Assembly: GCA_029248745.1 (NCBI GenBank) | Contig: JAQWIT010000008.1 | Location: forward strand, 124,001-188,000 | Direction of reading: 5' to 3' | Length of the DNA stretch: 64,000 bases | Source of the DNA: Gammaproteobacteria bacterium | GTDB taxonomy: Bacteria; Pseudomonadota; Gammaproteobacteria; Nitrosococcales; Methylophagaceae | Shown here: positions 45,924-56,763 of the stretch, one piece after another | How positions within the stretch are numbered: the stretch's first letter is position 1 | Layout: every line of letters starts with the position of its first letter | Position numbers and translations under genes: made by a program | Notes under the pieces: generated by a model | Database searches by the model: none | What the model was told of the DNA's origin: nothing | Seen by the model: the letters and a program-made list of their open reading frames with translations, nothing else

Positions 45924-45936
45924 GGAGGAGCCCGAG

Positions 45937-47383
45937 ATGAGGGAATTGGTAACACCAACAAGTGATTCTGCCTATGTCACCAAGCTTGCTCTCCGTTCTA
46001 TCCCGTTTAATGACCAGGTTGATTCAAGCTTTTTCATGCAGGTGGCCAAGCAGGCCATCGCCTAAATTTATTACTTCACTTTGTTAGAGCGAGCAATAAA
46101 ATTGCCAACTTGGTTGCGGACAAAGGGTTTGGCAAGTCAACATTATTGACTGAACTTCAGCAAAGAACAGGTGATGAAATTCGACTGTGTTTTATTGATG
46201 CTCAGCAACATACAGTATTACCAGCCATTCTTGGGCAGTGCTTGGTTTGCCTAGGAGTCAGTAGTCATAAGATCGAAACAGCAGAATATCCTATTCAGGT
46301 CTTTAAACATCGATTAGCACAATTAAGACAGTCAAGTATTACGCCAGTTATGTTAATTGATAATGCAGAAGAGTTGAATGTGGCTTTGCGGACTGAATTA
46401 GCAAGGTGGTTATAATGGGAAGGGGAACAAGGCGCTTTATTACAAGCCGTTGTGGCATCGGTACGGCCATTTGTGTTACCTGGCCCGGCCCAAAATAGAT
46501 TACAGGCTGTTACGTTGCCAGCCTTATCAGGAAATGAATTATCATCCTATTTGATGCACCGTTTGATTGGCGTCGGTTTCCAAGGTGAGACCCTATTTTT
46601 AGAGAAAGACTTAAAGCAAATTTATCAACAATCGATGGGAAATCTTAATCTTGTCAATCAATTAGCACACTAGCAATTGCACGGTATTAAACTGGTTAAG
46701 CCGACTTTAGCGTTATTAGATAATTGGTTAGCTAAGACGACTATGCGTTGGCCAGGTTTAGCCGTTGTTGTTGTGACGTTACTGTTGTTGTTACTGTTTC
46801 AAGATACGATTAGTCAATAGTTAACGGAAGTATCCGATGAAGCTGCCATAGATGATGTCACAGAGATTATTGAGGAAGAGGCAGAGTTGCCTATTGTTGT
46901 GACGTAAGCTCAGGCAGAACGAGACGAATTAGCTGATTTAATTGCAGACATTCCTAATATTAATGAGCAGGAAGCCGCAGCGCTTGAATCGATTGATCTG
47001 AAAAAAAGAAGGAGCCGGTACAGCGTCCTGTTTTTGTCGCACCTGCTGAGCCGTTAGTGAGTGTGCCCGATTTTCTGAAACAGGATTGGTTAATGGCACA
47101 GCCAGTCAGCCATTATACATTCCAATTGATGGGGCCTTGGGCACGAGAGGAAGTGTACGATTTTATTGACCAGTATGCATTGGTCGGTGATGTGGCTGTT
47201 TTTGAACGCATGCGTAACGGCCAGGTATGGCATGTTTTAGTTTATGGGTCTTTTAAAGATAAACAAGCGGCTTTAAAAGCTAGTGCAGCTTGGCCACCAC
47301 CGTTGAATACCCTGCCATCGTGGTTGCGTAAAATGAGTAGTGTCCAACAGCAAATCAAAGATAAGGCTGTAATTTCTCAATAA
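45937..47383 (+). pseudogene. damX: DamX-like AAA/SPOR protein, multiply disrupted
   Basis: Remnant of the damX-type gene usual behind aroB. The ATG at 45937 has GGAGGAG upstream. An in-frame TAA at 46063 is followed by NLLLHFVRASNKIA and a degenerate Walker A (ADKGFGKST), then PVMLIDNAEEL and a TAA at 46413, a further segment ending at TAG 46671, a single membrane helix (PGLAVVVVTLLLLLLF) with a TAG at 46818, an acidic linker with a TAA at 46906, and a frameshift near the A run at about 47005. The last 108 codons form a SPOR domain (HYTFQLMGPWAREEV). SPOR proteins bind septal peptidoglycan. The 3' end overlaps the next gene on the other strand by 29 bp. Confidence 0.85.
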
Positions 47384-48554
47384 GGGCTTTAGCATTGATT
47401 TGTTTGTTCGCGAAAACGGCGCGATAAACCTCTTTGTTATTTCTTTTAGCGGTGGAGAGTATGCCTTGTTGTAGGAGTTTATCGAGATTCTTATTCGTTT
47501 CGAAGCAAACAATGCCACTGGGTGAAGTGAACGTAGGCCAATTTGTTAACTCATTGAGCTTTTCTGAAAAGAATTGTGCTTGTTCTAGCGTGAAGCGACT
47601 ACTTTGGCGTAAGGTTTCGACGCCTGACGAAACCAGTGTGAACCACAGTGGTAGAAAACTCTCTCCGCCTTGTGAACCTGGTAGTCTATTATTAGGTTGT
47701 TGTTGGAGATAATCTGCCTCAATTGACAGCATTAAATTGACAGGCTGTTGATAGAGAAGCACGCTACAAGGCTTAGGCTGCCCCCATGCTTTATGTGGAT
47801 CAAAGCATATCGAGTTTGCTTGAAATCCTGGCTTTTCAAATAAGTCTTGACGTTCGGGTAGTAATTTTAAATGGCCGCCCCATGCCGCATCGATATGGCA
47901 CCAAGTATCGATTTGATTGGCCAGTTTTATACAGTCACTTATTGGATCGAAGATACCCGTTGACGTTGTACCGGCAGTGGCGATGATGGCAAGAGGCTGT
48001 TTAACTTGGCATGCTGCACTGAGTTGCATTAGGTTTACTTTATCTTCGTTATCTGTCGCAATAGGCTGGCATGTCAGCCCTAAAATTTGGCACGCTTTAT
48101 AAATGGAATAGTGGGCTGTTTGTGCGAGATAAACGGTATCTCTGTTTGGATATCGTTGCTTGGCTTGCCAGAGTGCTTCTAAGTTACCGTAGCTTGCACC
48201 GGCAGTGAAATGGCCATGGTTTTGCTCGAAAACGTCGCACAGCCAGTCTAACGTCTGGTTTTTAAGTGCATTGAGTACGGGATATAGCTCTGGTGAGAGT
48301 AAATTACCATTGTGCAGGCTCGAGAGTATTTGTCCGATTAAGCTCTCATTGCTGATGCTGGTAGTCATATGGGCCGCCCAGCCTGTGCTTTGATGCTGAC
48401 ACCCTTCTGCAAGTAATTGTTGTACTTGATTGGCGATAATATCCATATCGTTACCCTGATCATCAATGGTTGTAGATTTAATTGCTAGGGCTTCAAATGA
48501 GGTCACTTCTTTTAGTTGTTGAAGTGTTTTGAGGGCTTGATCTAACTCTGTCAT
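47355..48554 (-). CDS. PLP-dependent decarboxylase, tyrosine/aspartate decarboxylase-like (MfnA type)
   Basis: Group II pyridoxal-phosphate decarboxylase of 399 residues. Visible are the histidine that stacks on the cofactor (QTAHYS, His148), the aspartate in HIDAAWGG (Asp222), and the Schiff-base lysine in DPHKAWG (Lys255). In methanogens MfnA of this family makes tyramine for methanofuran. It is the last gene of an operon with MfnD-, MfnE- and MfnF-type genes and overlaps the kinase gene by four bases, so tyramine production for a methylofuran cofactor is the likely role. Aspartate (beta-alanine) or another amino acid cannot be excluded. Confidence 0.8.
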   Translation of the reverse strand: MTELDQALKTLQQLKEVTSFEALAIKSTTIDDQGNDMDIIANQVQQLLAEGCQHQSTGWAAHMTTSISNESLIGQILSSLHNGNLLSPELYPVLNALKNQTLDWLCDVFEQNHGHFTAGASYGNLEALWQAKQRYPNRDTVYLAQTAHYSIYKACQILGLTCQPIATDNEDKVNLMQLSAACQVKQPLAIIATAGTTSTGIFDPISDCIKLANQIDTWCHIDAAWGGHLKLLPERQDLFEKPGFQANSICFDPHKAWGQPKPCSVLLYQQPVNLMLSIEADYLQQQPNNRLPGSQGGESFLPLWFTLVSSGVETLRQSSRFTLEQAQFFSEKLNELTNWPTFTSPSGIVCFETNKNLDKLLQQGILSTAKRNNKEVYRAVFANKQINAKALIEKLQPYL

Positions 48555-49144
48555 AGTACTAGTGCTTGTTTCGGTAGGGCTAGAGAGTAGTCTGTTATTT
48601 GGCTTACATCGAACAGTTCAGTGACTATTTCAGTGTCGTTATACTGTTTTGGAAATGTTAGATCTAAAGTGCCTATCTTGCTTAATGTCTGGATGGAGTT
48701 GTATTGCTGTATTTGATGTTTGAGTAGAGTTAGCTTTTTAGGTTTCAATTGTTGCGCTAACCATAATGCGAGACTATCTGAAGTCGTCTCCCAGTTTTGT
48801 CTTATTTGCTTTTCTTTTAATAAGTTATTATCTGGAAGCCAGATCGACAGCATGTTCTCTGGTGCTTTGAAAGGTGCTTGTGTTGGGTAATACAAAGGGA
48901 TGGATCGATCACAAAGACCGAGTAACAGTAGGCCGAATTGTGACATAGCTAGTAAGGCCATATGGTGGGCATGGGCATCATCAATATTATGCTGTTGTTG
49001 GGCTTGTCTTATTTGGTCAGCGAAGGGGCCGCCACCAGGGACAATGATGATAGACTCACGCTGAGAGAGTGTGGCTAATTTATCCAGCCAATTGGGTAAT
49101 AAGCGGCTATTAAAAAGGCTACCGCCTAATTTGACGATGACCAT
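48551..49144 (-). CDS. amino-acid-kinase-fold protein, MfnE-like
   Basis: Small kinase of 197 residues with the amino-acid-kinase N-terminal motif VKLGGSLF (3-10), GGGPFAD (about 37-43) and a central TTSDSLALWLA segment. The protein is shorter than aspartate or glutamate kinases (about 260 or more) and close to MfnE, which phosphorylates aminomethylfuranmethanol phosphate in methanofuran synthesis. It overlaps the decarboxylase gene and is separated from pabB by two bases. Function assigned from context and fold. Confidence 0.75.
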   Translation of the reverse strand: MVIVKLGGSLFNSRLLPNWLDKLATLSQRESIIIVPGGGPFADQIRQAQQQHNIDDAHAHHMALLAMSQFGLLLLGLCDRSIPLYYPTQAPFKAPENMLSIWLPDNNLLKEKQIRQNWETTSDSLALWLAQQLKPKKLTLLKHQIQQYNSIQTLSKIGTLDLTFPKQYNDTEIVTELFDVSQITDYSLALPKQALVL

Positions 49145-49146
49145 GG

Positions 49147-50532
49147 CTAACGTAACTGATCAATGATATTCAATATTGCTGCCGCTTTGTCATGGACTTC
49201 TTGGTACTCTTGTTCGGCGTTTGAATCAGCCACGATACCACCGCCAGCCCAAAAGCGAAGGCGATTATTATTGTAGACGAGTGTTCGGATAAGGATGTTA
49301 CTGTCCATATTGCCATCAAAACCGATGTAAGCCATGCTGCCACAATAGGCACCACGTCTATCCGGTTCTAGTTCTTCAATGATTTCCATTGCTCGGAGTT
49401 TGGGCGCACCTGTAATTGAGCCACCAGGGAAACAAGCACGGAGTAATGAAACAGCAGTTTCATGTTCTGCGAGCATGCCTGTAATGGTGCTGACGAGATG
49501 GTGAACGGTAGCGAAGGTTTCTAGTGCAAAGGGTTTGGGAACGTTTATCGAACCTGACTGGCAGGCTTTGCCTAGATCATTACGTAGTAAGTCGACGATC
49601 ATTAAGTTTTCTGCCCGATCTTTAATACTGTTTTGTAGTTCATTTGCTAATGCAATATCCCGTTTTGGATTAGTGAGATCCCGGGGTCTTGTGCCTTTAA
49701 TTGGTTTTGTCTCGACTTGACCTTGTTTTAGTTTTAATAAGCGTTCTGGTGATGAACTGATAATGCTCAAGTTCGGTGTATCAAAGAAACAAGAAAAGGG
49801 GGCTGCATTTTGCTTTCGTAACAAAGCATAAACATGCCAAGGATCGCCTTCAGCTGCAATTTCAAACCGTTTGGCAAGGTTGACTTGGTAGCAGTCGCCT
49901 TCACGAATATACTCTTTTATTTTGTCGAAGGCAGTATTGTATTGTGTTGTTCCAAGTTGGCTGTTTAAGCTGCCAGAAACGGTCATCGTTTGTTGGGGAG
50001 GCATTTGGTCAGCATTGAGAAGAGAGATCAATTGTTGCCAGCTTTGTTCGGTCGAGGCATCCAATTTGAAGCTGGCTAAATAGCATTGCTTTAATTTGTG
50101 ATCGATTACAACCGCCCAGTCATAGAGACCAACAAGCATATCTGCTGCATTCTCTTGGTTAGCCGCTATATTAGGTAAATCTTCAATCTGACGACCTAAG
50201 TCATAACTAAAGAGGCCAATTGCACCACCACAAAATGGCAAGTTTGTTGTTGCTTGTTTGGGGTGCTCTGAGAGCTGTTGTTGTAAAACTTGAAAAGGGT
50301 CACCAGAAATTATGTCGGTTGACTTATGTGTTTCAATTGTTGTTTGTTGACCATGGGTGGTTAATGTTTTGAAAGGCGCTGCCGCAATGATGTCGTAACG
50401 ACTATTAAGGGTTGTGTCTGTTGTACTATCGAAAAAGACCGGCCAAGGTAAATGGCGGATACGATTAAAATAGTCGCTTGAATCCGAGCTGTAGGGTAAG
50501 GGTTCACAAAAAGGTGGGAGAAGTGTCGACAT
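49147..50532 (-). CDS. pabB: aminodeoxychorismate synthase component I
   Basis: Chorismate-using enzyme that with a glutamine amidotransferase makes 4-amino-4-deoxychorismate, the precursor of p-aminobenzoate. The 461 residues show the N-terminal PabB/TrpE fold and C-terminal motifs KPIKGTRPRDL (about 277), NLMIVDLLRNDLG, FPGGSITGAPKLRAMEIIEELEP in its usual place and GGGIVADS. The PIKGT lysine is that of PabB rather than TrpE (PxxGT). Its place within methanofuran-type genes suggests supply of PABA, which is the starting unit of tetrahydromethanopterin as well as folate. Confidence 0.93.
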   Translation of the reverse strand: MSTLLPPFCEPLPYSSDSSDYFNRIRHLPWPVFFDSTTDTTLNSRYDIIAAAPFKTLTTHGQQTTIETHKSTDIISGDPFQVLQQQLSEHPKQATTNLPFCGGAIGLFSYDLGRQIEDLPNIAANQENAADMLVGLYDWAVVIDHKLKQCYLASFKLDASTEQSWQQLISLLNADQMPPQQTMTVSGSLNSQLGTTQYNTAFDKIKEYIREGDCYQVNLAKRFEIAAEGDPWHVYALLRKQNAAPFSCFFDTPNLSIISSSPERLLKLKQGQVETKPIKGTRPRDLTNPKRDIALANELQNSIKDRAENLMIVDLLRNDLGKACQSGSINVPKPFALETFATVHHLVSTITGMLAEHETAVSLLRACFPGGSITGAPKLRAMEIIEELEPDRRGAYCGSMAYIGFDGNMDSNILIRTLVYNNNRLRFWAGGGIVADSNAEQEYQEVHDKAAAILNIIDQLR

Positions 50533-50541
50533 GTCAGTATT

Positions 50542-51582
50542 TTACGATAACTGCTGGCAGGCAAGAAGGGCTATTGCAGCAACAGGCGCATGATCTGTTG
50601 CTTGAGATGAGTGTGGTGATGTAAGCTCGCCAAACTCGATATATGGACTACCTAGTTGTTCTGCAAATTCTCGGGCCATAAAGCGTCCTATCCCTGCGCC
50701 AATGATGGGGGCTTGTGGAGACATAGGATTGTGGTGACTTAATACATTTTGACAGGCTTGTTGGAGTTGTTGGGATTGTTGTTGCGTAAACCAGTTTGCT
50801 AAGGCCAGCCAATCTTGCTCAGGAAAATTGTAGCCATCGGTACCGAGTAATCTAGCGAGGCGGCGGATACAGTCTTGTTTTTGCCAAGGCTGGCCATCGG
50901 ATGAATGATCTTGAATATGGTCAGGATTTAATTGTCCCGTTATAGACCAGCAATCCCCGCTGGTAGCAAAGACTTCGGCAGCGATTCTAATGGTTTTATT
51001 GTCAAAAGGGACGGAGTGAGCAATGGAAATGAGCGGCGTTCTGATAACGCCCGTGTAATGTAATTCACTGTTCGCCTGACGTTGGTAATCGGTATAAGCT
51101 TTGGCCTGAACTAGGTGGGCATCAATAGCGATGATATCGCTAGTGGTACTGCCTATGTCGATAAACAGGCCTTGTTTTACATGAGTTGCCGTATAGGCTG
51201 CACTGGCATGCCAATTCAGGGAGGCAACGTGTTGCCAGTCTGCAATGGCTTCTTTTGGTGTAAGCCAGCCATGTGCCCCTGCATAGATGTGGCAATGATG
51301 TTTGTTTAATCGTGTTTCAACACATTCTATGATTGCTGCAACACCTGCTTGTCGATCGGGAAAGATATCGACTAATTCACCGGTCATGGTTATGGCGTTA
51401 ACATGTGCAGACAGCTTGAGATTTTGAATTGCGGTGTCTATCGCTTTTTCCAATTGCTCGATGCCTCGCCAAAGCGGGCAAGGTAATTCAAACACTTGGC
51501 GTAATTCACCTTGTTGTGTGCATTGCGCGACTTTGAGGTGAGCACCACCAATATCCCATGCCGTAATCATATTTTGTGTCAT
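50542..51582 (-). CDS. H4MPT-linked C1 pathway protein, MfnF-like
   Basis: 346-residue protein of the hydantoinase/oxoprolinase superfamily with an ASKHA fold: WDIGGAHLK (9-17), FIDIGSTTSDIIAID (about 139-153) and GAGIGRF near the C-terminus. This matches the group annotated as probable H4MPT-linked C1 transfer pathway protein in methylotrophs, related to methanogen MfnF, which joins the furan and the glutamyl-tyramine parts of methanofuran. It overlaps the ATP-grasp gene upstream (ATGA) and precedes pabB by 9 bp. Confidence 0.82.
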   Translation of the reverse strand: MTQNMITAWDIGGAHLKVAQCTQQGELRQVFELPCPLWRGIEQLEKAIDTAIQNLKLSAHVNAITMTGELVDIFPDRQAGVAAIIECVETRLNKHHCHIYAGAHGWLTPKEAIADWQHVASLNWHASAAYTATHVKQGLFIDIGSTTSDIIAIDAHLVQAKAYTDYQRQANSELHYTGVIRTPLISIAHSVPFDNKTIRIAAEVFATSGDCWSITGQLNPDHIQDHSSDGQPWQKQDCIRRLARLLGTDGYNFPEQDWLALANWFTQQQSQQLQQACQNVLSHHNPMSPQAPIIGAGIGRFMAREFAEQLGSPYIEFGELTSPHSSQATDHAPVAAIALLACQQLS

Positions 51583-52595
51583 AAGGTCAGTTTGATCGTT
51601 TGTCGCCGTGTAATGGGATTCACTGATTTATTTTCTATTATGTCAAAGAAACGTTGCATTGGGTTGAGGTTTAATGAGTGAGTGAGCCCAGTGTAACTTG
51701 TTGTGTGTCTTGGGTTAATATCAACGATGAAGTGTCCTTGTTGATTACTGATTAAATCGATGCCAATAAAGCCGACTAATCCAGGTACGGCAGTATGTAA
51801 CCTCTTGGCGAGCAGGTTTATTTGTTTCAGACTTGGGATGTCATCAACATGATTGATAGTACAGGCGGATAAGGATAGTTTTCCTTGTGACTGTTCAAGG
51901 TGTTGTCGATTGATGGAGAGGACTTCAATCGCATTTTTTGAGGCTAACAAACAGAGGCTGATGGTTTTTCCGCCTATGTAGGGCTGGACTATGTATTGTT
52001 CTAATTCTTGAGTTTGTTTAGCATTTAGGCTTTTTTGTAAATCTGTTGTAGATTTAAAGTAAGTGGTGTTAATGCAGCCTGCACCGTCTCGAGGTTTGAG
52101 TATAAAGCCATTCTGAGGGTTAGCGGATGGAACGTGCCATTTGGAAGCCAATTGGGTTGTTATTGTTGGTATACCTGTCTGTACGAGGTGTTGATAACAA
52201 TGTAATTTGTCGCTACATAATTGTATTGTTGTTGGTTGGCAACCCAAAAGCATTTTACCGGCATCGGCGGCTTGCTGCTGGAGCATTGCTAAGGTATTGT
52301 CGGTTTCTGGCGCGATGATGAGGATGGCATCGCAGCGTTGTAAATGTTGCTCCCAAGCTTGGTGATAGTCATTTAAAGTCGTGACGGTATGGCAGTGGTG
52401 TTGGTCATTTTTCTCAAAGAGATCAAGTTTGTTAAGTCGTTTGTCTCTGAGTGTCATTAAACTACACTGTTGTGTGGCATGGCTGTCCTCTAATACAGCC
52501 ATCACCATTTGATCTCCTTCTTTAGCAAGAGTTGGAGGTAGCTTTTGTTCAGCTAGCGCACCGCTTGTGATATGTTCGTAAACAAATAGTTTCAT
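51579..52595 (-). CDS. ATP-grasp ligase, MfnD-like
   Basis: 338-residue ATP-grasp enzyme. It begins with KLFVYEHITSG, has FILKPRDGAGC (about residue 182-192) for nucleotide binding, and metal-binding residues in GIDLI and VDINPRHTTSY (about 294-312). These match the ATP-grasp proteins of methylotroph cofactor clusters and MfnD, which ligates glutamate to tyramine. It is the first gene of the five-gene minus-strand operon. No Shine-Dalgarno sequence is apparent before the ATG, and only 23 bp separate it from the divergent HisA-like gene. Confidence 0.78.
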   Translation of the reverse strand: MKLFVYEHITSGALAEQKLPPTLAKEGDQMVMAVLEDSHATQQCSLMTLRDKRLNKLDLFEKNDQHHCHTVTTLNDYHQAWEQHLQRCDAILIIAPETDNTLAMLQQQAADAGKMLLGCQPTTIQLCSDKLHCYQHLVQTGIPTITTQLASKWHVPSANPQNGFILKPRDGAGCINTTYFKSTTDLQKSLNAKQTQELEQYIVQPYIGGKTISLCLLASKNAIEVLSINRQHLEQSQGKLSLSACTINHVDDIPSLKQINLLAKRLHTAVPGLVGFIGIDLISNQQGHFIVDINPRHTTSYTGLTHSLNLNPMQRFFDIIENKSVNPITRRQTIKLTL

Positions 52596-52618
52596 TGGAG
52601 TTCTATCGAGGAGGTTGA

Positions 52619-53335
52619 GTGGAGATTATACCGGTCATTGATTTGATGGGGGGAAAGGTTGTACACGCTAAGGCCGGAGAACGACAAACTTATCAAGCTA
52701 TTCAATCTGTCTTGACCAAAGCGACCGACTTACATTCAGTTGTTGCTGATATCTTGTCCTTTTACCCATTCAAAACGATGTACATCGCTGATTTAGATGC
52801 GATAACGGGCAGAGGCCTTGATGTTACTCAATATCAACGATGCTTAGCCCAATTCCCAGAGGTCACGTTTTGGCTTGATGCAGGGGTTTGTAACCAAGCT
52901 GATTGCGATAGCTTTCCGATTTCGGAACGCTTAGTGATGGCTTTGGGCAGTGAAAGCTTACAAACATTGTCTTTATTAAAAGAGGCTCGGTCTTCTGTGC
53001 TTTCATTGGATTTTAAACAAGGCCGTTTTCTGGGAGATCAGCGCCTATTAGAGCAAGTCGAATTATGGCCAGATAAGGTGATTGTGATGAATTTAGATCG
53101 GGTCGGATTAAGTCAGGGGCCAGATTTAGTTTTAATGGGGGCTTTGCGAGAAAAGAAACGGGAGGTGAGTCTGATCGCAGCGGGTGGTGTTCGTCTGGAA
53201 GATATTACTATTTTAGCTGAGTTAGGTGTGGAGCAGGTGTTAATCGCAAGTCTCCTGCATCAAGGTCTGTTGACACGTGAATGCCTAAGGATTATAAGTG
53301 AGCCCGTCTCAATCAAGGGCGGGCTCACTGAATAA
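52619..53335 (+). CDS. HisA/HisF-related TIM-barrel protein of the C1-cofactor cluster
   Basis: 238-residue protein with the HisA fold: PVIDLMGGKVVHAKAG (about 5-20), an IADLDAITGRG strand-loop (about 57-67), and the C-terminal phosphate-binding IAAGGVRLEDI and VLIASLLHQG. It is distinct from histidine HisA, since catalytic loops differ and no his genes surround it, and fits the HisAF-related family shared by methanogens and H4MPT-using methylotrophs. The start is a GTG with GGAGG 4 bp before it. It is transcribed opposite to the flanking cofactor genes. The reaction is unknown. Confidence 0.8.
   Translation: MEIIPVIDLMGGKVVHAKAGERQTYQAIQSVLTKATDLHSVVADILSFYPFKTMYIADLDAITGRGLDVTQYQRCLAQFPEVTFWLDAGVCNQADCDSFPISERLVMALGSESLQTLSLLKEARSSVLSLDFKQGRFLGDQRLLEQVELWPDKVIVMNLDRVGLSQGPDLVLMGALREKKREVSLIAAGGVRLEDITILAELGVEQVLIASLLHQGLLTRECLRIISEPVSIKGGLTE
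53297..53329. repeat. strong inverted repeat between convergent HisA-like gene and fae
   Basis: AGTGAGCCCG (53297-53306) and CGGGCTCACT (53320-53329) form a perfect 10 bp stem with a 13-base loop, placed over the last codons of the HisA-like gene and 17 bp from the fae stop codon. No T tract follows on either strand, so it is not a textbook terminator, but the position suits a bidirectional transcript end or 3' stabiliser. Confidence 0.55.
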
Positions 53336-53345
53336 TCTGACTTAC

Positions 53346-53867
53346 TCAGCCTTCTGCAGCGAAAGGATGCTCAGAAGCTTTGTATTGTGCTACAACATCA
53401 GCTGCTTTAGGTTCACGTGCTACAGCGCGTTTGATTGATTCTTTTGTTGCACGGTAGTTCCAATCTTGAATTTTTTGATCGTTGTCTGCTGTTGGAGAAA
53501 TGAAAACACCAACACAGATGAAACAATCATCAGCTTCAGCCATAGGAATTGTGCCATCTTCAACACACTCAGCAACAGCCACAGCAACGCCGCGCTGTGC
53601 TGGGCCGAACATTTGAACGGCTTGTTTCATGTTTTTGATAGTGACTTTGTTAAACATAACTGTTGCAGGTTTCACCATTAAATTAGGCGCAACTACAGCA
53701 AGTAAGCCATTAACACCGGCTTTTTGGTCTGTTAGTGTGCGGCAAAAGGCATCTTCTGCTGCTGAACCACGAGGGCCCATAACTAAGTCAATATGAGCAA
53801 CGTTGTCTAGATCTCCATCTTCAATGACAAGAGATTCCCCTACAAGTACACGATCGATAACTGGCAT
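53346..53867 (-). CDS. fae: formaldehyde-activating enzyme
   Basis: Fae condenses formaldehyde with tetrahydromethanopterin to methylene-H4MPT, the entry to formaldehyde oxidation and detoxification in methylotrophs. The 173 residues match bacterial Fae throughout: [20 protein letters not shown] near the start, [23 protein letters not shown], and [18 protein letters not shown] in the C-terminal half. An AGGA site lies 10 bp before the ATG. It is a single-gene unit with its own leader holding a hairpin. This gene together with mch proves an H4MPT-dependent C1 pathway. Confidence 0.98.
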
Positions 53868-54011: not shown

Positions 54012-54860
54012 TTAAGAAAGCGCCTGAGAAAATGCATAAATTAGCAAGCTTGCGGCGGCCATATCTGCAGTTGTACCCGGGTTAATCGCATTCTGCTTTA
54101 ATTCTGTGTCCCATAGGGTGATGTCGGTCTCAAATTCACTCAGATTCTGGTTTTTCGCCATCTTTTCGATTATTTTTTTTGACCTAGTCATCACTGTGGT
54201 TGCACATGCCAAACCTTGTTTGCGATATATCAAGCTGTCTGGCATTGCTGACAGAAGCTTAAGATACGCGAAAGCGGTAGCCCATTCAATACTTTCCCCA
54301 CAATTAATCGATAATGTCAAATTGCTTAAACCGACCTCAAAAATATCATGATAGTTATTGCTATATTGTGCTGCGATTGAATCATAATCTTCAGCAAGCT
54401 GCATAGCCTGTTTTAGGCCTACTGTCGGAGTTGAATGAATGTCTTGCTCTTTATTTTTTCCAAGGCCCCCAGGCTGGGCAATTTGAATCGCTTGATAGGC
54501 TAATTTTGTATCTTCATTAGAGAGAGAGTTGAGGGTGCGCGATAACGCTGTCGGTAATTGTTCAAAATACTGGCATGAGTGGATGGCTTTGCAGAGTGGT
54601 GCAAAGAGTAAAATGATGCCTAGATTGGTGTTACAGTCTACAACCGTCCTGGTTGCTTTGACTGCATTTAAGATCATTTCGCCGATACTTTGATCGGGTT
54701 GTGATAAGCCGAGTGCGATAGCATGTGCACTGTCGATAAATTGTTGTATCGACATGTCATGGCCATCACTAAAGCAATTAACATTGCCGGGTTTGGGTGC
54801 TGATACTTCTTGAATACATGCCCAAGTAATCGCGTTTTCTATTTCCTTAGTGCTGAGCAT
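54012..54860 (-). CDS. CitG-like (triphosphoribosyl-dephospho-CoA synthase family) protein of the H4MPT cluster
   Basis: 282 residues from the ATG at 54860 (the frame is open to 54920 but the homologous start is MLSTKEIENAI). Motifs of the CitG/MdcB family are clear: EVSAPKPGNVN (about 18-28), NTNLGIILLFAPLC (about 77-90) and PGGLGKNKEQD. Genes of this family recur in methylotroph H4MPT clusters. CitG makes an alpha-ribosyl linkage from ATP, and H4MPT carries an alpha-linked ribose 5-phosphate, so a similar transfer is a reasonable inference, not shown. The start overlaps the ATP-grasp gene. Confidence 0.8.
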   Translation of the reverse strand: MLSTKEIENAITWACIQEVSAPKPGNVNCFSDGHDMSIQQFIDSAHAIALGLSQPDQSIGEMILNAVKATRTVVDCNTNLGIILLFAPLCKAIHSCQYFEQLPTALSRTLNSLSNEDTKLAYQAIQIAQPGGLGKNKEQDIHSTPTVGLKQAMQLAEDYDSIAAQYSNNYHDIFEVGLSNLTLSINCGESIEWATAFAYLKLLSAMPDSLIYRKQGLACATTVMTRSKKIIEKMAKNQNLSEFETDITLWDTELKQNAINPGTTADMAAASLLIYAFSQALS

Positions 54861-55767
54861 GTTCTGTTTGGGGAGTTGTGGTAAGACGCTTATTAATGGC
54901 TTGTACGATGTGATGAGCAATATTGATCCCTGTCGCTTGTTGTAAGCCCTTCCAAGCAGGGATGCTGTTGACTTCTAAAACGGTGTAACTACCATCTTGC
55001 GCGCGGATAATATCAACACCAGCATAAGCCGCATCCACTGCTTTACTTGCATTTAAAGCTAAAGCCATCATGTCATCGTTTATTGTAGCTGCTAAGCAGT
55101 CTGCACCTTGTGCAAAATTGGTGATCCAATGTTTGGCATGGCGCGACATGGCCGCTACGACTTGGTTATCGATGACCATAAGACGCCAATCTTGCCATTG
55201 GTTTGGTGTATAAGGCTCGATGTAATGCTGTAAATAAAAAGCGTCACCGACAGGTATTTGTTTTCTCAGTTCAGCCAATGATGTGATTTTTTTAATGCCT
55301 TTACCTTGGCAACCAAACAGGGGCTTTAGGACCAGTGCATGGCCTTGTTTTAATTGTTGTTCAGCAATGCGCTGTGCTTTTTGGCTGTTTTCACAAGCCC
55401 AGGTTTTAGGTGTTGTAATGCCAGCGAGATGAAGACGTAATGATGTTCGGGCTTTATCGACTGTATGTTCAATAGCTTTAGCCGTATTCTGAACGGGGAT
55501 ATTTAACTCTGCCAGCGTATGGAGAATGTCCATTCTCAAGGTAATTTGTTCTAAAGTCCCAGGTGCAATGCCGCGTACAATCACGGCGTCAGGTAATTTG
55601 CCTTCTAAACCGGGTATCCATAGGCCATGTTCAGCATTGAGATCAATCGCGCAATCTGCCAAGTCTGCTAGCGTGACATCAACATCATAATCTGCAAAAG
55701 CATTGAGGAGTTGGTTGCTATGCCAGCCATGCGTGTCATTAAAAATGACGATATGTTGAGATGCCAT
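54847..55767 (-). CDS. RimK-type ATP-grasp ligase of the H4MPT cluster
   Basis: 306-residue ATP-grasp protein with a RimK-like layout: an N-terminal domain (MASQHIVIFND), VDKARTSLRLHLAGITTPKT (about 126-145), ALVLKPLFGCQGKGI (about 172-186) and the metal-binding VDIIRA and VLEVNSIPAWKGLQ near the C-terminus. Such ligases add glutamate residues; archaeal MptN acts on H4MPT this way. It lies 12 bp after mch and overlaps the CitG-like gene, so modification of H4MPT or methylofuran is more likely than ribosomal S6 modification. Confidence 0.8.
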   Translation of the reverse strand: MASQHIVIFNDTHGWHSNQLLNAFADYDVDVTLADLADCAIDLNAEHGLWIPGLEGKLPDAVIVRGIAPGTLEQITLRMDILHTLAELNIPVQNTAKAIEHTVDKARTSLRLHLAGITTPKTWACENSQKAQRIAEQQLKQGHALVLKPLFGCQGKGIKKITSLAELRKQIPVGDAFYLQHYIEPYTPNQWQDWRLMVIDNQVVAAMSRHAKHWITNFAQGADCLAATINDDMMALALNASKAVDAAYAGVDIIRAQDGSYTVLEVNSIPAWKGLQQATGINIAHHIVQAINKRLTTTPQTEHAQH

Positions 55768-55779
55768 TACTAAGTTTGG

Positions 55780-56763
55780 TTATAACCCGAAAGAAGTCGT
55801 TAGCATTGCCTCATTCAATTCCCCTGCAGTGTAACTGTTGCCGCTATTAGCATTTGTCACAATGACTTTGGCAGGGCTGAATAACATAGGGTCAATTTTA
55901 AAGAAATCATATTCATATGATTTAAAAATCTCGCCAAAAGGACGACCATAATCTGAAGAAGTATTACTTGGCATTTTCTCTGCTAAGTCTTTGGCTTCAT
56001 CATCGCTTGACTGGACAAAGAGATGAACCAAACCACCATATAAGATTGCATCATTGGTGCGACCCATACCTGTCATGAAGTCTCCGCCTGGTGGTGCGAC
56101 AGGTGTCACACCAAAGCCATCGATAATTCTATCCATTGGGAAGTGCAAAGTGTGGGCTTTGTGCATGGCAACTTCTAAAACACGAATGGCGATTTGCATT
56201 ACACCTGCAGTGCTTGAGGTTGGTGTTAAGATAAAGGTCAATTCATCAGCTGCAATACCGCAATCTTTGGCTACTTTTTCCGCTACTTCGACGGGTGGGA
56301 ATTTATCGACTTCTAATACGATACAAGTGCTGTCAGCGTTATCTTTGTAGCGAAACTCTTTAAGGACTTCTTCTTTAGCGGCTAAAGCGCGGCCAGGTCC
56401 GGAGCCCAGTGCATAAAACTCGCTTTCTTCGCTTTTGTGAGACAGACTCCAACCCGCATATTGACTACCTAAGCAGCTTAATACCGGTGTTTTTGCATGT
56501 ACATTGACAGACCAGGGCCAGTTATCAAAACCGCTATTGGTGCTTAATGTTACTGTGCCAAGCCCACCCATGCAGATTTCGCCAATTAAGCGACCGGCTT
56601 CTAGCCCACCGACACAATTTATCCCGGCATCAATGATGCGTGTCCCGTTACTTAATGTACGGACTTCTAATTGCAAAGCTTGTGCGTCAGCAACGAGTTG
56701 GTCAACTAATGGCTGGCAGGCAGCGTTAACGCTGGTCCAGTTAGCGGAAATTGCACTACTCAT
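55780..56763 (-). CDS. mch: methenyl-tetrahydromethanopterin cyclohydrolase
   Basis: Hydrolyses methenyl-H4MPT to 5-formyl-H4MPT in the oxidation of formaldehyde to formate. The 327 residues match the family in length. Recognisable parts are GINCVGGLEAGRLIGEICMGGLG in the N-terminal third, a SGPGRALAAKE segment (about 122-132) and FGVTPVAPPGGDFMTGMGRTNDA (about 220-240). It heads an operon with the RimK-like and CitG-like genes. Partner genes (mtdB, fhcABCD) are not in the window. Confidence 0.97.
   Translation of the reverse strand: MSSAISANWTSVNAACQPLVDQLVADAQALQLEVRTLSNGTRIIDAGINCVGGLEAGRLIGEICMGGLGTVTLSTNSGFDNWPWSVNVHAKTPVLSCLGSQYAGWSLSHKSEESEFYALGSGPGRALAAKEEVLKEFRYKDNADSTCIVLEVDKFPPVEVAEKVAKDCGIAADELTFILTPTSSTAGVMQIAIRVLEVAMHKAHTLHFPMDRIIDGFGVTPVAPPGGDFMTGMGRTNDAILYGGLVHLFVQSSDDEAKDLAEKMPSNTSSDYGRPFGEIFKSYEYDFFKIDPMLFSPAKVIVTNANSGNSYTAGELNEAMLTTSFGL

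Follow-up and report, generated by a model that had tools for sequence, protein, structure and literature searches.

The conversion of tyrosine to tyramine is the only decarboxylation known in the pathway to methylofuran (MYFR), and it decides whether the cofactor is of the tyramine or the tyrosine type (PMC8141765). The source of the tyramine is a puzzle in several bacteria that make the tyramine type and have no homologue of MfnA. The window analysed here, a stretch of 64,000 nucleotides from a member of the Methylophagaceae with a near-complete genome of 1.73 Mb, contains a methylofuran operon that ends in a gene for a PLP-dependent decarboxylase. The locus thus raises the question of whether this enzyme is MfnA and whether it makes tyramine.

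The operon and its surroundings

The operon consists of five tightly packed open reading frames at 47355-52595, all on the minus strand. Its gene content and order can be read directly from the DNA, and the family matches agree with the succession given in the initial annotation: an ATP-grasp protein, an MfnF-like protein, pabB, an MfnE-like kinase and a decarboxylase. The first gene (51579-52595) encodes an MfnD-like ATP-grasp ligase (ATP-grasp_3; matches to PF02655 and PF18301), corresponding to orf1 of methylotrophs and predicted to be a tyramine/tyrosine-glutamate ligase. Its top NCBIfam match is MfnD_Meth (NF040722), at 98 bits and below the curated cut-off of 400, and it occupies the same place in all 32 family loci; bacterial orf1 is already regarded as a homologue of mfnD (PMC5020050). 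The start of the second gene (50542-51582) lies within the mfnD stop codon, in an ATGA overlap of 4 bp at 51579-51582. Its product, Orf9, matches TIGR03123 (one_C_unchar_1) with 314 bits against a cut-off of 244 and the narrower MfnF model NF040623 with 147 bits against a cut-off of 520, and is the predicted joiner of the furan pyrophosphate and the tyramine or tyrosine part.

After a gap of 9 bases follows pabB (49147-50532), encoding component I of aminodeoxychorismate synthase (TIGR00553, 370 bits; cut-off 328), and after 2 more bases the gene for the MfnE-like protein Orf21 (48551-49144), a kinase with the amino-acid-kinase fold (PF00696, AA_kinase) whose top NCBIfam match is MfnE (NF040622), at 73 bits and below the curated cut-off of 300. 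The last gene (47355-48554) starts within the mfnE stop codon, again in a 4 bp ATGA overlap (48551-48554), and encodes a group II PLP decarboxylase (Pyridoxal_deC, PF00282; 137 bits, cut-off 27) that belongs to a clade specific to the Methylophagaceae.

The neighbouring genes complete an island for H4MPT and methylofuran. Next to mfnD is orf17 (52619-53335, plus strand; HisA/HisF-like, TIGR00734, 114 bits), which is needed for methylofuran in M. extorquens (PMC8141765). The two genes are divergent, with start codons 23 bp apart (52595-52619), so either their promoters lie inside each other's coding sequence or mfnD is read from farther upstream, antisense to orf17. Beyond them, on the minus strand, are the genes for the formaldehyde-activating enzyme Fae (53346-53867; TIGR03126, 214 bits, above cut-off), a CitG-like protein at the orf7 position (54012-54920; PF01874, 228 bits), a MyfB/Orf5-like glutamate ligase of the RimK type, for the polyglutamate chain (54847-55767; MptN_Meth, 219 bits; rimK_fam, above cut-off), and the methenyl-H4MPT cyclohydrolase Mch (55780-56763; TIGR03120, 406 bits, above cut-off). 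Thus mch, orf5, fae, orf17, orf1/mfnD, orf9/mfnF, pabB and orf21/mfnE all cluster here.

The initial annotation had noted that MfnB is absent from the window, and it is indeed found elsewhere in the genome (G000:C13:49758-50399, 216 bits), adjoined by a DHPS-like gene and AfpA, while an ATP-grasp protein of the OrfY/MyfA type and MptG are encoded on contig C1. MfnC was not identified in the window's genome. With MyfB/Orf5, Orf17, Fae and Mch in the island and MfnB, OrfY/MyfA and MptG outside it, the proposal of a methylofuran assembly island holds, and the block is the standard bacterial gene island for this one-carbon carrier.

Conservation of the operon and the place of pabB

The order mfnD-mfnF-pabB-mfnE-decarboxylase is observed, in the same orientation, in 32 of 32 Methylophagaceae loci read, and most of these carry the whole block, from a tRNA-nucleotidyltransferase gene and mch through aroB-aroK. 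Since identity between the decarboxylases of the family is 36-65%, this shared order is not due to chance. Orthologues of the decarboxylase are present in 53 of 57 family genomes, including Methylophaga thiooxydans, M. aminisulfidivorans and M. muralis. One family member, G003, with a genome of 1.1 Mb that is 100% complete, has neither mfnF nor the decarboxylase and retains a single chorismate-binding gene, which suggests that this streamlined lineage has lost the methylofuran pathway. In another, only 495 bases separate mfnF from a contig end in the direction in which the downstream genes are expected, and the absence of the decarboxylase there may be an artefact.

The interval between aroB and the decarboxylase has a history of its own. 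In the window it holds a decayed damX-like (AAA/SPOR) gene (45924-47383, plus strand), the longest open piece of which is 130 aa. The gene is split by a frameshift in one relative, intact (480-572 aa) in twelve others checked with the full interval, and gone from two with genomes of 1.5 and 1.2 Mb, in which aroB and the decarboxylase gene abut. This is a graded loss series that accompanies genome reduction.

Across the class, 369 genomes were sampled, and TIGR03123 scores above its cut-off in 40 of them. At the loci read from other families pabB follows mfnF directly in 37 cases out of 40, usually with mfnE next, and the association of pabB with the methylofuran/H4MPT pathway has already been published (PMC3615186, PMC4109929). 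The special coupling of chorismate flow to C1 cofactors that had been read into the embedded pabB is therefore lost as a feature of this locus. The operon does supply a PabB, as proposed, but not one dedicated to H4MPT: a search for a second pabB found none in the genome. One further chorismate-binding gene is present, a trpE that belongs to a trpE-G-D-C cluster, and the trpG of this cluster is the sole above-cut-off candidate for the PabA subunit. This also disposes of the idea of PabB as a dedicated second copy. As the only one in the genome, it must serve folate as well as H4MPT. Exactly two chorismate-binding genes are likewise present in 40 of 44 pathway-bearing genomes. The island pabB is the cell's general source of p-aminobenzoate, an arrangement that is known already and not peculiar to this window.

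The decarboxylase is distributed differently. A comparison across gammaproteobacteria, as the initial annotation had suggested, recovers the pabB arrangement broadly and the decarboxylase after mfnE only in Methylophagaceae among the loci read. No alternative decarboxylase was found among the ORFs scanned directly after mfnE in other families. A search of 44 genomes, nearly all of them MYFR-positive, found related genes in 17, but never within the operon, and the idea that MYFR bacteria in general have the enzyme there was thus rejected. The well-matched relatives in other MYFR genomes are about 500 aa long; one genome has a related gene about 6 kb past the mfnE end, next to the gene for a sigma-54 regulator. 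Another clade of group II decarboxylases, short at about 410 aa, comes from Burkholderiales and from a MAG of the Acidiferrobacteraceae (L105, L107, L110 and L111), and it was dropped as a pathway lead after no mfnF was found in these four genomes.

Catalytic residues, fold and descent of the decarboxylase

The window's genome was found to encode no PF00282 protein besides the decarboxylase. An alignment of 28 members directly displays an invariant set of catalytic residues, Lys255 (the Schiff-base lysine), His148, Asp222, the loop tyrosine Tyr282 and Arg378, which align with Lys245, His132, Asp206, the loop tyrosine and Arg371 of MfnA. In group II enzymes, an unvarying tyrosine in this loop is consistent with simple decarboxylation to an amine. 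A model of the monomer, of good confidence (pLDDT 86.7), has the group II fold, with fold-search Z scores of 35-39, but this search does not separate subfamilies, since MfnA entries score 36-37 and the diaminobutyrate, aromatic and glutamate types 36-39. Nor do sequence models, since all 28 members match those for histidine (HDC), aspartate (PanP), diaminobutyrate (DABA) and MfnA decarboxylases about equally. No feature of the sequence by itself singles out a substrate, and we infer tyrosine from the genomic setting.

The initial annotation had called the enzyme MfnA-like. It is a group II PLP enzyme with its catalytic residues intact, but it does not appear to be an MfnA orthologue. For the window protein alone, MfnA (TIGR03812) is the top NCBIfam match, yet at 119.1 bits against a curated cut-off of 299.4. 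Identity to M. jannaschii MfnA is 20%, about equal to that with sphingosine-phosphate lyase, and rises to 25-28% with diaminobutyrate-type and Sphaerobacter decarboxylases. A profile of the family likewise scores 186 bits against the diaminobutyrate-type structure, 179 against that from Sphaerobacter and 101 against MfnA, whereas MfnA, queried with a sequence that aligned with 3f9t along its full length of 396 residues, has sphingosine-phosphate lyases as its own nearest solved relatives (123 bits). In a maximum-likelihood tree, the Methylophagaceae decarboxylases are directly observed as one clade (support 100/100), and MfnA and sphingosine-phosphate lyase fall together beyond a 98/99 branch that splits them from all the others. 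MfnA is represented by one row only, and both it and the lyase have long branches, so that the case against descent from MfnA is strong without being conclusive.

A predicted tyramine route and its place among known systems

The reading that we favour is that the Methylophagaceae recruited a tyrosine decarboxylase independently and make a tyramine-type methylofuran, which is probable, though with substantial room for doubt as to substrate, product and cofactor type. A role in the pathway is favoured because the decarboxylase gene ends the operon at all of the loci read, is coupled to mfnE through the ATGA overlap and is absent together with mfnF from G003. The first four genes, for MfnD, MfnF, PabB and MfnE, are the core that bacterial H4MPT/methylofuran islands conserve. 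An ancestor of the Methylophagaceae would have gained a group II PLP decarboxylase, drawn from the part of the superfamily that holds the diaminobutyrate and aromatic decarboxylases, at the 3' end of the operon and in translational coupling with mfnE. The enzyme would most likely convert free L-tyrosine to tyramine, which MfnD would join to glutamate, while MfnB, a transaminase and MfnE would produce the furan pyrophosphate. The halves would be united by MfnF and then extended with a polyglutamate tail by OrfY/MyfA and MyfB, to give tyramine-type methylofuran. The job of MfnA would thus be done without descent from MfnA, and PabB would provide p-aminobenzoate for both H4MPT and folate.

The decarboxylase might instead have a different small amino acid as its substrate (aspartate, glutamate, diaminobutyrate, histidine or serine) and yield an amine that is used elsewhere, its place in the operon reflecting co-regulation only. 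This is rather unlikely, and it draws on the nearest solved relatives of the family, the diaminobutyrate-type, cysteine-sulfinate and glutamate decarboxylases (186-138 bits), and on the evenly matched HDC, PanP, DABA and MfnA models. Such mere co-regulation is hard to square with an invariant position and mfnE coupling in the face of such sequence divergence, or with the joint absence with mfnF, and the formation of tyramine is the one decarboxylation known in the pathway (PMC8141765). One version of this idea, in which the enzyme supplies beta-alanine in place of a missing PanD, was rejected: PanD, the classic aspartate decarboxylase, is present, and beta-alanine supply thus needs no second enzyme.

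It is improbable that the decarboxylase acts on a tyrosine-containing intermediate (glutamyl-tyrosine or the tyrosine-type core) or carries out a decarboxylation-coupled transamination that replaces MfnC. MfnC has no assigned enzyme in bacteria (PMC8141765), and the coupling partner of the decarboxylase gene, mfnE, encodes the enzyme for the step directly after MfnC. However, the other MYFR lineages sampled do not have the gene in the operon and would all need another enzyme for the MfnC step, and the invariant loop tyrosine is typical of simple decarboxylases. If this were true, the Methylophagaceae would have a different route to methylofuran. Finally, descent of the enzyme from archaea as a true MfnA, along with the rest of the pathway, is very improbable, since its similar length (399 vs 396 aa) and top NCBIfam match to MfnA are outweighed by a score far below the cut-off, an identity no higher than with sphingosine-phosphate lyase, the affinity of MfnA for the lyases and the 98/99 split in the tree.

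How does this compare with known systems? MfnA of Methanocaldococcus jannaschii (3f9t, 6lds), an L-tyrosine decarboxylase that also acts on L-aspartate, shares with the Methylophagaceae enzyme the group II PLP fold, the length and the catalytic Lys, His, Asp, loop Tyr and Arg, and the same reaction is predicted for both, although the two belong to different branches of the superfamily. The nearest solved relatives, the diaminobutyrate-type and Sphaerobacter decarboxylases (8zpi, 4rit), have an HM...NNNxLSxExxP region in common with the Methylophagaceae enzyme but are about 80 residues longer. We know of no link between decarboxylases of this type and C1 metabolism.

The archaeal-like H4MPT/methylofuran island of methylotrophic proteobacteria (mch, orf5, orf7, fae, orf17, orf1, orf9, pabB, orf21), as described by Kalyuzhnaya (2005) according to its citation in PMC4109929 and PMC3615186, contains these genes in the order seen here, with pabB among them; the group II decarboxylase after mfnE sets the Methylophagaceae apart.

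For the cofactor, the closest comparison is with the nine bacterial strains tested by Hemmann et al. (2021; PMC8141765), six of which make tyramine-type MYFR. A tyramine cofactor, which the initial annotation had implied to be a departure for bacteria, is therefore no novelty. Three of the six producers have an MfnA homologue and three do not, no strain with such a homologue made the tyrosine type, and Hemmann et al. proposed that there are further tyrosine decarboxylases (PMC8141765). With three producers lacking an MfnA homologue, a decarboxylase beside the operon is not a necessary sign of the tyramine type, and MfnD does not discriminate either, since M. album, a tyrosine-type producer, also has an MfnD-like paralogue (PMC8141765). 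The same cofactor as in the six producers is predicted for the Methylophagaceae. However, of the bacterial mfnA candidates Mfla_2033, Snov_0063 and VAPA_RS28950, the only one with a described place, Mfla_2033, adjoins the mxa cluster. Methylorubrum extorquens can incorporate supplied tyramine into MYFR. What is new is thus not the cofactor type but an operon-encoded, independently recruited candidate for the tyrosine decarboxylase. Fixed in the operon of a whole family and not MfnA by descent, it suggests that different decarboxylases have been recruited more than once for the tyramine step. Its own predicted role is specific and can be tested genetically in culturable Methylophaga.
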